Positions 49,355 to 55,075 of a stretch of DNA of 64,000 bases are shown piece by piece. The notes under the pieces are model-generated. The model ran no database searches and was not told the DNA's origin. It was given only the letters and a program-made list of their open reading frames with translations. The position numbers and the translations under genes were made by a program. How positions within the stretch are numbered: position 1 is the stretch's first letter; every line of letters starts with the position of its first letter. This DNA comes from Verrucomicrobiota bacterium (GTDB lineage: Bacteria; Verrucomicrobiota; Verrucomicrobiia; Limisphaerales; JACPZS01): assembly GCA_016195385.1 (NCBI GenBank), contig JACPZS010000039.1, forward strand, positions 1 to 64,000, written 5' to 3'.

Positions 49355-50158
49355 ATGAACTCAACTCGAACCCAAGACGGACAAAGGAACGGCTTCACGC
49401 TCATCGAACTGCTCGTCGTCATCGCCATCATCGCGATTTTGGCGTCAATGCTTCTCCCGGCGCTCGCGAAGGCCAAATCGAAAGCGCAATCTATAAAGTG
49501 CTTGGGCAATTTGCGACAGCTAGGCTTGGCATGGCACCTGTACACGCTCGATCACGACGACGCAATGCCTCCCAATTTTGAAGGCCCGGATAGCGGAGGA
49601 CTGAGTCGAGGCCTGCCGGGTTCGTGGGTTCTTGGTAATGCACAATCAGACACGACGACCAGCAATGTTCAGGGCGGCGTTCTCTACATTTATGTCAATA
49701 GCAGTGCTGTGTATCGATGCCCGGCAGACCGGTCCAGCGTCAGGGCTGTTCCAAGCCTCGTCCGTACACGCAGCTACTCGCTCAATGGCTGGTTGAACGA
49801 TGACGAAACTCGTTTGGGATACCCGCCCGAATTGTTCAAGCCCTACCTCAAGACAAAGTCCGCGCAACTGCTCAAGCCTGTGCAAGTCTTCACGTTCATT
49901 GATGAACATGAGCAAAGTATCGACGATGGTTCCTTTATCACGGTTTTCCCAGCAGTCGCAGCACCGGGCAACCAAGGCGATTGGATCAGCTTGCCTTCAG
50001 ACCGGCACGACCAAGGATGCAGCGTTGGATTCGCAGATGGTCATGCCGAGCACAAGCGATGGAAAGCTCCCAAACGGTTCGAAATCCCAAGGCGCCCTCC
50101 CGTCGGGGAAGATTTGAAGGATCTTCGTCAAATGCTTGAGTGGATCCAGCAGGAATAA
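49355..50158 (+). CDS. H-X9-DG type prepilin-like protein
   Basis: 267 residues. A short leader [13 protein letters not shown] precedes [20 protein letters not shown] with Glu-5; the helix continues [22 protein letters not shown]. The C-terminal part contains [19 protein letters not shown], the H-X9-DG motif shared by the large planctomycete/verrucomicrobial pilin-like family related to DUF1559. These are usually present in many copies per genome and are thought to be processed by prepilin peptidase. It is separate from the main cassette and lies upstream of the RCC1-repeat gene on the same strand. Confidence 0.9.
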
Positions 50159-50232
50159 GGGCTTACTGTCGCTTGCTCCTCGCTGCCCGCGTCGTCTCGA
50201 ATACCTTTGTCATCGATCTCACAGTCAGCGAT

Positions 50233-52944
50233 ATGAAATTGCAAAACTACTTTCTCACACTGTTGCTTATTTTTGTGGTTTGCCCCGGCGACACCACTGC
50301 TCAGGCGCAAGCTTCCGTCGCTGTAGCGGCGTGGGGAAACAACGATAGTGGCCAAACGACCGTGCCCGTCGCGGCGCAAAGTGGTGTGATGGCAATTGCA
50401 GCCGGAGCGCGTCACACCGTGGCCTTAAAGAGCGACGGCTCGGTCGTAGCGTGGGGACGTAACGACAGCGGCCAAGCGACAGTGCCCGTCGTGGCGCAAA
50501 GCGGGGTCACAGCGATTGCAGCAGGAGGCAACCACACCGTGGCCTTAAAGAACGACGGCTCGGTTGTGGCGTGGGGATGGAACGAAAACGGCCAAACGAC
50601 CGTGCCCGTCGCGGCACAGAGTGGCGTTATAGCGATTGCAGCAGGAGACGCTCACAGCGTGGCCTTAAAGAGCGACGGCACCGTCGTGGCGTGGGGAGAC
50701 AACAATTCAGGCCAGGTTACAGCAGCTCCAACAACGAACGCTCCCTCTGCGACAGCAAGTCCAGTCACACTGAACGGCCAAGTCTTGAGCGGGGTGAAGG
50801 CGATTGCGGCCGGAGGTTATCACACCGTCGCCCTAAAAAGCGACGGCTCAGTGGTAGCTTGGGGACAAAACGACTCCGGCCAGGTCAATGGAACCACGTC
50901 ACGGTCGTTTGCGATAGCGAATCCAGTCAGACTGCGTGGGCAGACCTTGGACACGGTGTTATTGAGTGGAGTGATTGCGATTGCGGCTGGCGAATGGCAC
51001 ACTGTCGCCTTGAGGAACGACGGCTCAGTAGTGGCTTGGGGACACAACAGTTACGATGAAACAACAGTACCCGTCACGGCACAAAGCGGAGTGGTGGCGA
51101 TTGCGGCAGGCGGTTCCTACACAGTGGTTTTGAAGAGCGACGGAACAATTGTCGCATGGGGATATAATGAAAACGGCCAAATGATGGTGCCTATGGCGGC
51201 GCAGGGTAGAGTGACGGCGCTTGCTGCAGGCTGGTCTCACGTTGCGGCGCTCGTCATTCCAACTGCTCCCACCATCAACGTGTCTCCTGTGAGCTTGGCT
51301 GTAAGCGCGTGGCAAAGCCCCAGCTTTACCGTGACGGCCACCGGTTTCCCCCTTTACTACCGGTGGCGTAAAGACGGCGTAAATCTTGTGGGTGCGATGA
51401 ACGCCACTTACCGCCTGCCGTTCGCGCAGACGAATCATGCAGGCGAATATACCGTGGTGGTGAGCAATCCCGCCGGGAGTGTGACCAGCACCCCTCCGGC
51501 GGTGCTGACCGTGAACGCGAGCATTTCTCCAGGCACAGTCGTGGCGTGGGGAGAAAATGCTTCAGGCCAATTGGACGTACCAGTCGCGGCACAGAGCGGA
51601 GTGACGGCCATTTCGGCGGGAGGGATCCACTACTACGGCGATCGGTCGATTGGTTACAGCTTGGCCTTGAAGAACGACGGCTCAGTGGTGGCGTGGGGAA
51701 CCACCAATAATGCCTCGACCGGTCCAGACTTCCGCCAGTCGCAAGTGCCCGCTGCGGCCCAAAGCGGGGTGACGGCCATCTCGGCGGCAGACTTTCATGC
51801 CGCAGTTTTGAAGAATGACGGCACGGTGGTGGCATGGGGGGACAACCGTGCCGGCCAAGTGACAGGAATTCCAACATTCGACCAAGCAGGCGAGCCATAT
51901 TTTCCGATAGCAAGTCCCGTCACACTGAACGGCCAAGTGTTGAGAGGCGTGACGGCGATTGCGGCAGCAGGGCTTCACACGTTCGGCCTGGGCGGTTGGG
52001 GGCATACAGTGGCCCTGAAAAAGGACGGAACGGTCGTTGCTTGGGGCCACAACGGCGGCGGACAGGTCACAGGAACTCCGACGACCAACGACCCTCCGGC
52101 TGCGATCGCAAGTCCCGTCATATTGGACGGGCAGGTGTTGAGTAATATCACCGCGATCTCGGCGAGAGCAATTCACACTGTGGCATTGAAGAACGGCGGC
52201 ACGGTGGTGGCTTGGGGCTTCAACACGCACGGACAAGTCACTGGAACTCCATCAACCAACAATGGAGCTGAAGTTGCAATCGCAAATCCAGTCATACTGG
52301 ATGGCCAAGTCCTGAACGGCGTGAAAGAGATTTCGGCTGGAGCGTATCACACCGTGGCCTTGAAGTACGATGGCACAGTGGTGGCTTGGGGAGCCAACTT
52401 CTATGGCCAAGTGACAGGGACCCCAACGACTAACGAACCTTACTCCGCTATCGCAAGTCCAGTCACACTGGAAGGTCAGGTCTTGACCGGCGTGAAAACG
52501 ATCGCGGCAGGTGGTTATTACACCGCGGCCTTGAAGAACGACGGCACGGTCGTGGCGTGGGGAGACAATGGTGTGGGCGAGATCACAGGGGCTACAACAA
52601 CGAACAACTTTGGGGGTTGGGGGAGTGCAATAGCGAATCCAGTCACACTAAGAGGTCAAGTCTTGAGCGGCGTGACGGCAATCGCGGCGAGTTACATTCA
52701 CACCGTGGCTCTTCTCGGCAATGTCCCGCTGCTGCCCTCTCTAAATACTATGACCAGCGGCAATGAAATCATCATCTCCTGGCCCACGAATGCCGTCGGG
52801 TTCAGACTGCAAGCAACGACCAGTTTGGTTCCACTGGTCAATTGGATCGATTACGCCAGTCCTTCTGCGGTTCATGGTGGGCAATTCACCGTCACAAATA
52901 GTCTTTCCGGCGACGCACGTTTTTTTCGGCTACTGAAGCGGTAA
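50233..52944 (+). CDS. Secreted RCC1-repeat protein with central Ig domain
   Basis: The ATG at 50233 (MKLQNYFLTLLLIFVVCPGDTTAQAQA, a signal peptide) gives 903 residues; the track start at 50140 lies inside the previous gene. I count 14 RCC1 repeats of the form VVAWGxNxxGQ...IAAGxxHTVALKxDG: seven at about 30-345, then an Ig-like domain (WRKDGVNLVGAMNATYRL ... GEYTVVVSNPAG), then seven more. The protein ends in the shared tail ARFFRLLKR. Two seven-bladed propellers joined by an Ig hinge are implied. An extracellular binding or adhesion role is inferred. Confidence 0.9.
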   Translation: MKLQNYFLTLLLIFVVCPGDTTAQAQASVAVAAWGNNDSGQTTVPVAAQSGVMAIAAGARHTVALKSDGSVVAWGRNDSGQATVPVVAQSGVTAIAAGGNHTVALKNDGSVVAWGWNENGQTTVPVAAQSGVIAIAAGDAHSVALKSDGTVVAWGDNNSGQVTAAPTTNAPSATASPVTLNGQVLSGVKAIAAGGYHTVALKSDGSVVAWGQNDSGQVNGTTSRSFAIANPVRLRGQTLDTVLLSGVIAIAAGEWHTVALRNDGSVVAWGHNSYDETTVPVTAQSGVVAIAAGGSYTVVLKSDGTIVAWGYNENGQMMVPMAAQGRVTALAAGWSHVAALVIPTAPTINVSPVSLAVSAWQSPSFTVTATGFPLYYRWRKDGVNLVGAMNATYRLPFAQTNHAGEYTVVVSNPAGSVTSTPPAVLTVNASISPGTVVAWGENASGQLDVPVAAQSGVTAISAGGIHYYGDRSIGYSLALKNDGSVVAWGTTNNASTGPDFRQSQVPAAAQSGVTAISAADFHAAVLKNDGTVVAWGDNRAGQVTGIPTFDQAGEPYFPIASPVTLNGQVLRGVTAIAAAGLHTFGLGGWGHTVALKKDGTVVAWGHNGGGQVTGTPTTNDPPAAIASPVILDGQVLSNITAISARAIHTVALKNGGTVVAWGFNTHGQVTGTPSTNNGAEVAIANPVILDGQVLNGVKEISAGAYHTVALKYDGTVVAWGANFYGQVTGTPTTNEPYSAIASPVTLEGQVLTGVKTIAAGGYYTAALKNDGTVVAWGDNGVGEITGATTTNNFGGWGSAIANPVTLRGQVLSGVTAIAASYIHTVALLGNVPLLPSLNTMTSGNEIIISWPTNAVGFRLQATTSLVPLVNWIDYASPSAVHGGQFTVTNSLSGDARFFRLLKR

Positions 52945-53011: not shown

Positions 53012-55075
53012 TCATTTTTTGTGCCACAGTGATTTCAGCAGTTCTTCGAATCGCGTGTCCGACCGAAGACCGTCAAAGCTTGCGTCCGTGTATATCGCAA
53101 TTGCGAAATCTGCTGGCACCTTTTCTTTCGCAAGCCGCAAGTATTCGATCGCTTTGTTCGGCTGATTTAGATGGGCGTGGATCGTTGCCAAACTCAAAAA
53201 GTTTTGGTTGTCGGCTTTGGAATTTTCCATTTCAAGTCGCCGTTGCCAATAACCTTCACGCCCTCCTTGCTTGAAAGCAGTTTCCAAAGCATCGAATTCT
53301 GCTTTCACCTGCTTCGGATTTTCGCCGCTCTCCAATGCCGACTGTCTTCCTAAGCGGATGGAATTTGTATAGTCGCCTTTCGCTAGATAAAATTGGGACT
53401 GCGCGTAATGCGGCGAGTCAACGCCATCCTTGAGCCAAGACTTCGAATTGTCGTACAATTCGATGGCGCGGTCATATTCTCGGCACCAACCATAAACAAA
53501 TCCCGAGTAAATTGTGCGAAGCTTTGAAGGAGTATGTCGGCCAACGTCGATGGCCTTCCTCAACTCCGCCAGCGCTTCCTTGGTGCGGCCCAGGGAGGCA
53601 AAATTCAGAGCAGCAACTAAAAGGACTTGTTCTGAATCCGGACTTAATTTGATTGCGAGTCTGTTTTCTCTTTCGGCGGCTACAAAATCCAAAGCGAATA
53701 CGTTAGCCGCCGCGAATGCGGAGCGGGCAAGACCGGATCGCGGATCCAGCAGCACGGCTTTTTTTGCCGCCTCTTGTCCATTCCGGTTGCTCGTCTGACT
53801 TGGAATCGAAAACCATGCGTCCGCCAATTGGGCATACGCGTCAGCAAACATGGGATCCCACTCGGTTGCTTTTTCAAAATGCTTGATCGCCTCTGCTGCA
53901 TTGAGATTGAGATGTAATTCGTCGTATCCCCTAACGTACTCCACGTTGGCTTCGACAACGGGTGATCTCTTGAAATCGGACGAGCGTGGTGCCCGAAAGG
54001 TCAGCGAATAGACGATCGCCGATACTACCGCGAGGCCGGCCAATGCCGCCGCAAGTTTCGTCGCAAGATGTTTAGTTCGCTGCCAGGCCCGCCGCTGTTT
54101 CACCGAGCGGCCAGCGTTCAGCAGTTCCAAGTCGGCGTGCAGTTCTTCGGCGTTCGTGTAGCGGTCCCGCGCATTGGAAGCACACGCTTTGACGATGATT
54201 TCGTTCAATTCGAGCAAGGCATCACGCTCCGGCACGTCGGGCCAGCCGAGCGGGAGGTCGGGAAAGTCGCGACGGTCGCGGCCCATCGCGGCTTCGTAGA
54301 GTACCTTGCCCAGCGCGTAGAGATCGGCTTGCGGCGTGCCGGGGCCTTCGGGCGCGAGGTAGCCTTCGGTGCCGACTATCGAGCGTGCGTCGTCGCCGGT
54401 GGCCGCGTGCGTCACGAGGCCGATGTCCGCCAGCTTGGGCCGTCCGCCGACGAAGATGATGTTCGACGGTTTCACGTCGCGATGCACGAGTCCTTGCGCG
54501 TGCAGGTGCGCGAGCGCGTGCGTTAGCGAGAGGCCGATTTCGATGACGCGCACGACGGACAGGCGGCCACGCTGCTTCAAGTCATGGCGGAGAGTGTGGG
54601 GGACGTACAATGACGAATCACGAACATTGAATGATGAAGGAAGTCCGAAGTCCAAAGCTCGAAGATTGCTATTTGTAGTTGCGTGTTCGGCATTGGAGAT
54701 TTGGGTTTCTTTCGGATTTCGACCTTCGTCATTCGGGTTTGGCACCGTGTCGGCCAGTTCCATCACATAGTAGAAGTGGCTGTCGTCAGGCGCGCGGCCG
54801 ACGTGGAGGATGGCGACCTGGCTGGGATCGGAGCGGGAGATGGGTTCGTAGCGGCGTATGCCGGCGAATTCACGCTCGAACGGGCGCGGGTCGTCGCCGA
54901 ACACGTCGCGCCGGACAATTTTCACCGCGCGAAATTCGCCGAGGACGGTTCGCGCGAGCCAGACTTCGCCGTACGCGCCGACACCGATGCAGCGGATCAA
55001 AGCGTGATCCGGGACTTGCGGTGGAACTCGCCCGGCAAATGAAGCAACGTCTGGCGGTGCCTCCAGTGGTTTCAT
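53012..55075 (-). CDS. Serine/threonine protein kinase with TPR domain
   Basis: 687 residues. The kinase domain has the glycine loop IGVGAYGEVWLAR, the VAIK-type lysine in FRAVKIVRRD, the catalytic loop LVHRDVKPSNI and a DIG (LADIGLV) in place of DFG. A 44-residue stretch between MELADTVP and YVPHTLRHDL is encoded by a 132-base insert that looks like a dispersed repeat. One transmembrane helix follows (LAAALAGLAVVSAIVYSL), then TPR-like repeats (AAEAIKHFEKATEWDPMFADAY; TKEALAELRKAIDVG; NKAIEYLRLAKEKV). It is probably a membrane-anchored signalling kinase with an outward TPR sensor; the target is unknown. Confidence 0.88.
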   Translation of the reverse strand: MKPLEAPPDVASFAGRVPPQVPDHALIRCIGVGAYGEVWLARTVLGEFRAVKIVRRDVFGDDPRPFEREFAGIRRYEPISRSDPSQVAILHVGRAPDDSHFYYVMELADTVPNPNDEGRNPKETQISNAEHATTNSNLRALDFGLPSSFNVRDSSLYVPHTLRHDLKQRGRLSVVRVIEIGLSLTHALAHLHAQGLVHRDVKPSNIIFVGGRPKLADIGLVTHAATGDDARSIVGTEGYLAPEGPGTPQADLYALGKVLYEAAMGRDRRDFPDLPLGWPDVPERDALLELNEIIVKACASNARDRYTNAEELHADLELLNAGRSVKQRRAWQRTKHLATKLAAALAGLAVVSAIVYSLTFRAPRSSDFKRSPVVEANVEYVRGYDELHLNLNAAEAIKHFEKATEWDPMFADAYAQLADAWFSIPSQTSNRNGQEAAKKAVLLDPRSGLARSAFAAANVFALDFVAAERENRLAIKLSPDSEQVLLVAALNFASLGRTKEALAELRKAIDVGRHTPSKLRTIYSGFVYGWCREYDRAIELYDNSKSWLKDGVDSPHYAQSQFYLAKGDYTNSIRLGRQSALESGENPKQVKAEFDALETAFKQGGREGYWQRRLEMENSKADNQNFLSLATIHAHLNQPNKAIEYLRLAKEKVPADFAIAIYTDASFDGLRSDTRFEELLKSLWHKK
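54609..54740. repeat. 132-bp in-frame insert in the kinase gene, repeat-like
   Basis: The stretch is AT-richer than its surroundings and built of short near-repeats such as AATGACGAATCACGAACATT and GGAAGTCCGAAGTCC. This is the style of boilerplate repeats seen between genes in this lineage. It is 44 codons long with no stop in the kinase frame, so it reads through as NPNDEGRNPKETQISNAEHA and onward. Confidence 0.55.

Follow-up and report, generated by a model that had tools for sequence, protein, structure and literature searches.

In-frame dispersed repeats in the hinge loop of Verrucomicrobiota protein kinases: a probable recurrent acceptor site

Introduction

How does a piece of DNA resembling the dispersed repeats of a bacterial lineage come to be read as part of a protein kinase, and is such a capture an isolated accident or a recurrent event? 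The question arises from a 64,000-nucleotide stretch of a Verrucomicrobiota genome (the whole of the DNA analysed, hereafter the window), in which an earlier sequence-only reading had picked out 132 AT-richer bases lying in frame beside the ATP-binding hinge of a kinase and proposed that they derive from a mobile repeat. It is very probable that a dispersed repeat with inverted arms entered a short, exposed kinase loop in frame, and that this loop has served as a recurrent and independent acceptor. The single case noticed at first is one instance of a recurrent event.

The kinase and its hinge loop

Judged by its domain and catalytic motifs, the product of the window gene is a bacterial Ser/Thr protein kinase. 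The features discussed below are as follows.

53012-55075, minus strand: gene for a Ser/Thr protein kinase of 687 aa, with TPR repeats after the kinase domain (open reading frame, Pfam PF00069 and TPR families, Foldseek)
54749-54763, minus strand: MELAD, the hinge motif ahead of the loop (invariant or nearly invariant in family alignments)
54608-54748, minus strand: loop from the hinge to helix D, 47 codons long where most short-loop relatives have 8 (low pLDDT)
54609-54740, minus strand: GAA-family repeat element in frame, with arms of CGAAATC / CGAATGA units (composition, matches, alignment)
54707-54740, minus strand: first arm in the reading sense, AAACCCGAATGACGAAGGTCGAAATCCGAAAGAA (alignable to copies outside kinases and to the loops of three further kinases)
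54651-54706, minus strand: spacer between the arms, unconserved among copies (alignment, spacer z-scores)
54608-54650, minus strand: second arm, inverted units, abutting the Tyr157 codon (arm search and alignment)
54476-54484, minus strand: catalytic-loop motif HRD (within HRDVKPSN), downstream of the hinge loop (invariant in alignments)

The reading frame is intact in the list of open reading frames, the PF00069 match scores 76 bits, and the HRD, K and GxG motifs are invariant across the kinase family alignments. The nearest structures to the predicted kinase domain are those of PknB and PknA (best Foldseek hits). In the AF2 model most of the domain exceeds a pLDDT of 90 and the hinge loop falls to about 43-71, so that the domain is predicted to be ordered and the loop disordered. 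In nearly all family members, the window kinase included, the alignments give the magnesium-binding motif as DIG in place of DFG. The neighbouring reading frame at 50140-52944 (934 aa) carries many VVAWGxNxxGQ repeats and looks RCC1-like by eye.

The description first given of the insert holds in its particulars. Coordinates and frame agree on a stop-free, in-frame stretch between MELAD, whose boundary is at 54749, and helix D, with the Tyr157 codon at 54605-54607 on its far side, and the 47 codons, against 8 in most short-loop relatives, do form an extra loop beside the hinge. The GC content of 54609-54740 is 43.2%, compared with 56.4% for the kinase gene and 57.9% for the window, and the stretch is internally repetitive, with inverted arms (16 nt at 81% complementary, 12 nt at 92%) and a 23-nt direct repeat at 74%.

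By itself the window copy is degenerate. Its best self-complementarity score of 19 was equalled in 4 of 40 shuffles, its fold as DNA has a z of -1.8, and it falls below the threshold for lag-7 periodicity; the self-complementarity and the tandem 7-nt units are both clear in other members of the family. An Rfam search matched no family, and GTAG, by which GTAG REPs are recognised, is absent from both ends of 54609-54740. The insert is a repeat by virtue of its family, that is, its matches in relatives and its column-by-column alignment with non-kinase copies of its own genome and with three other kinases, and not of its own palindrome.

A family of heptamer repeats with inverted arms

Blastn matches to the insert occur in 28 of 97 genomes from the order, the best at E 1e-8, and the likeness of the insert to dispersed repeats is borne out by other copies in its own genome. 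These are diverged (best E 0.03), with no strong second copy among them. Paired arms some 90-150 bases apart occur at C98:102.5 kb and C161:42.0 kb, where the surroundings look intergenic, and at C252:2.6 kb, which is crossed by one antisense reading frame; half copies lie at C47 and C53. Most of the genomes compared are draft assemblies from metagenomes, and repeat copies are found at contig ends (G000:C53:1-96 and C212:1-58), which suggests that assembly is interrupted at GAA-type repeats and that the true copy numbers are higher.

The unit pattern CGAAATCCGAAA has 137 hits in genome G025, 40 in G051 and 13 in the own genome, and the reversed control has none; because successive hits step by 7 bases the units are heptamers. 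The strict array pattern is nearly absent outside the order, being present in 3 of 195 genomes of the phylum, the own one included. When the window insert is aligned with the inserts of three other kinases and with five copies from outside kinases, all have in common the arms and the inner landmarks (GAAAGAA ... TTCYTTCG). The repeat appears to be mobile, since it is dispersed and since some orthologues have it and others do not; no transposase (RAYT-type enzymes being those looked at) and no target-site duplication were identified for the insert. RAYT transposases are present in the five genomes. A REP/RAYT origin was considered and set aside as unsupported, few GAA-type repeats lying around these genes.

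The same loop in related kinases

The hinge loop was read in about 140 relatives, nearly all Verrucomicrobiota and some sharing records, with about 60 coming from whole-genome searches and others being named loci of the genome collection. They yield 127 distinct loops, 50 short (mostly 24 nt) and 77 long. About 15 kinds of repeat are visible in many of the long loops, including arrays of GAA, GTTCAAA, GTTGAGA, ATGGAGT, AAAATG, GGAGAAA, AGTGATC and GAAGATG as well as CTCTCCC and GTAGC palindromes, among others. An inverted-repeat score of at least 22 is reached by 29 of the 77 long loops and by 4 of 626 equal-length flank windows (p about 2e-26 by Fisher's test), and a lag-7 periodicity of at least 16/20 by 20/77 and 2/626, respectively. 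At least one threshold is passed by 32 long loops. The 45 that pass neither may comprise some decayed repeats and others that are ordinary linkers. L120 and L121 may carry further extra sequence in addition to the main loop, immediately past TLRSLL, where helix D begins.

Aligning the kinase with its homologues, as had been proposed, shows that the closest kinases have no GAA repeat and that many relatives have 24-nt loops. The same reading had held that finding this loop in other genera would count against a captured repeat. Such loops exist in form only: three kinases of other genomes, L117, L167 and L178, carry the GAA family at the same site, but they do not belong to the nearest relatives, and their spacers are not clearly like that of the window kinase (z 0.9, 2.4 and 3.9). 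All four GAA loops have the end of the second arm at the Tyr codon, and they stand in separate places of the kinase tree. A single common origin of the four is not favoured by tree positions and spacers; separate captures would be the more likely history, ahead of one old loop.

Turnover of the loop against a conserved kinase

The content of the loop changes while the kinase around it is conserved. L118 and L128 have flanks 81% identical in DNA, and L110 and L129 flanks 82% identical, with unrelated repeats in the loops of each pair. Further, L108 has a loop of 153 nt and its sister L157, in one supported clade, a loop of 24 nt. Repeat type tracks the genome and hardly the kinase tree: with labels given to 41 tree rows, several of them by eye, two kinases of one genome share their type in 20 of 55 pairs and kinases of different genomes in 34 of 765, a within-genome agreement that none of 5000 permutations reached, and at least 28 changes of type are needed on the tree, compared with 29-35 for shuffled labels.

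Could a single ancestral long loop have had its content swapped by gene conversion or recombination between repeats, with no fresh insertions? Long loops are common in the kinase subfamily, and two pairs point this way. The paralogues L127 and L130 of one genome have flanks only 70% identical and loop centres, spacer included, that are nearly identical (z 19), and the loops of L171 and L179 are similar (z 13) on flanks in the same 70-72% range. Such loops on diverged flanks indicate that copying between paralogues appears to occur besides insertion. However, the filled and empty pair L108 and L157 speaks against conversion as the whole account, and the first arrival of a repeat type is impossible by conversion. 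As the only process it is doubtful; gene conversion is probably a second process alongside insertion.

Repeats in other genes and the reading frame

Repeats of the same families also lie inside unrelated genes. An array was taken as genic only if its protein could be recognised; some of the listed reading frames, which run through arrays on both strands, are antisense or spurious. Of 13 hand-counted GTTCAAA array clusters in genome G003, 6 lie in kinase loops and 5 in other long reading frames. As kinase genes make up an estimated less than 1% of the genome, the 6 represent a large excess, for one genome and one repeat family. The 5 other reading frames include leucyl-tRNA synthetase (L342), where the insert splits two blocks that adjoin each other in solved structures, and ArgJ (L339), with an in-frame GTTCAAA array. 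In G025 a GAA array lies inside HemL (L371) and adds 33 residues; relative to solved structures, the insert amounts to about 33 residues in both the synthetase and HemL. GAA arrays of G025 are also found inside UvrA, aminotransferase, MeaB-like and U32 peptidase proteins, and one array of the own genome is situated in a high-GC3 frame of an oxidoreductase-like reading frame (L378). At L369 (G025:C36:173850-176850) a GAA array is placed directly ahead of a pilin-like FTLIELLVV signal segment, beside a possible start.

All long loops are in frame and open except those of L133 (G003:C62), which is shifted, and L139 (G061:C201), which has stops; both are probably decaying kinase genes. The kinase L117 has a stop farther downstream of its loop. 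Because 7 leaves a remainder of 1 on division by 3, a heptamer array encodes one and the same cycle of 7 residues whichever of the three frames is read, and CGAAATC arrays are, by sequence arithmetic, free of stops on either strand. The complement of GTTCAAA contains TGA, and the second arm of a GTTCAAA element must therefore remain short or imperfect. Selection would remove insertions that break the frame, and heptamer arrays, which read alike in every frame, would be favoured and survive more easily.

How the loop may have been filled

In the account that we prefer, one copy of a dispersed repeat with inverted arms would have entered a short, exposed kinase loop in frame and would now be translated as a disordered 44-residue extension near the ATP pocket. 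In many paralogues and related species the loop would have been filled independently by the repeat families of each genome, and its repeats later replaced or sometimes copied between paralogues. Insertion itself may be random, with selection keeping only the in-frame, tolerated cases, and an exposed loop in numerous, partly redundant kinases would be permissive. As a part of this account it is very likely that, across dozens of kinases, the hinge loop is a recurrent site of landing and swapping for the genomes' own repeats. The insert in the window kinase is most likely a tolerated one, predicted to be neutral or mild for kinase activity.

A different reading takes the loop to be a functional, diversified part of the kinase, with repeats as raw material for a docking or regulatory extension and with turnover under selection. 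It would fit the persistence of 20-60-residue loops in many paralogues of several families, the frames kept in all but two long loops and the fast turnover of repeat type. Yet no motif is common to the loop sequences across families, disorder is predicted by AF2, and repeats also enter the synthetase, HemL and ArgJ, where there is no reason for diversification, while the need to preserve the kinase alone explains the kept frames. This reading is unlikely. It is equally improbable that the loop is a cassette site at which exchanged repeats alter the binding of partners or regulators beside the ATP pocket; if true, selfish repeats would supply this order of bacteria with signalling diversity.

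Sequence-specific targeting, in which an element recognises the loop site, would account for all 4 GAA inserts ending directly at the Tyr codon and for the 6 of 13 GTTCAAA clusters of G003 in the hinge loop, but about a dozen unrelated repeat families fill the same site and the same families enter unrelated genes with no shared target evident by inspection, which leaves targeting quite improbable. An ordinary low-complexity linker, its repeat likeness due to chance or assembly error, would suit the weak palindrome of the window copy and is nevertheless scarcely credible, given that windows taken from the same genes as controls hardly ever reach the thresholds, the control pattern has 0 hits and many independent assemblies show the same arrangement.

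Relation to known systems

Intragenic palindromic repeats are already known from Rickettsia and from a verrucomicrobium, and the phenomenon is thus of a known kind. Rickettsia palindromic elements are short palindromic repeats found in frame in conserved protein genes, and in one tested case, a guanylate kinase, the element-bearing protein is translated and active (PMC2229807, PMC10969869). The window insert resembles them in description as an in-frame, stop-free repeat in a conserved gene with copies elsewhere and homologues that lack it. The host, however, belongs to another phylum, and while the Rickettsia elements are described as scattered among many different genes, a single homologous loop here takes up many repeat families in different paralogues.

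Heptameric repeats, such as STRR of cyanobacteria, GGGAATC of Xanthomonas and TAACTGA of Beggiatoaceae (PMC4692102, PMC4679880), are mainly intergenic, and the G-rich ones are under-represented in genes (PMC4692102). They share with the GAA and GTTCAAA arrays the tandem 7-nt units (seen here as 7-nt steps) dispersed through the genome; in contrast, the arms described here form inverted pairs on either side of a spacer, and many are located in frame within genes.

No relevant report of repeat-built kinase loops came up in the literature searches. An acceptor loop filled recurrently across paralogues and by several repeat families was not found described in the literature searched, and is new here. 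It offers many parallel natural insertions at one homologous position, in kinases that are otherwise similar and whose main difference is the repeat they carry. Such parallel insertions make the tolerance, adoption and spread of translated mobile repeats directly testable, for which single scattered cases are insufficient.

The GTAG REPs are another close precedent. In-frame intragenic copies are reported from the verrucomicrobium Opitutus terrae, including two uvrA genes with two inserts each, as are different REPs at about the same recB site in two Xanthomonas species; the main text of that paper makes no mention of kinase loops (PMC3733652). The window element differs in having no GTAG end and in being built of heptamer-like units, whereas the kinase loops of L107 and L135 look GTAG-like. 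In the UvrA of G025 (L354, G025:C6:64400-67400) the GAA array is nested in a GTAG-like palindrome ahead of the LFDEPTTG motif, and an apparent second repeat-derived insert, PVAADVSRLTSK...RLTSAAT, lies upstream.
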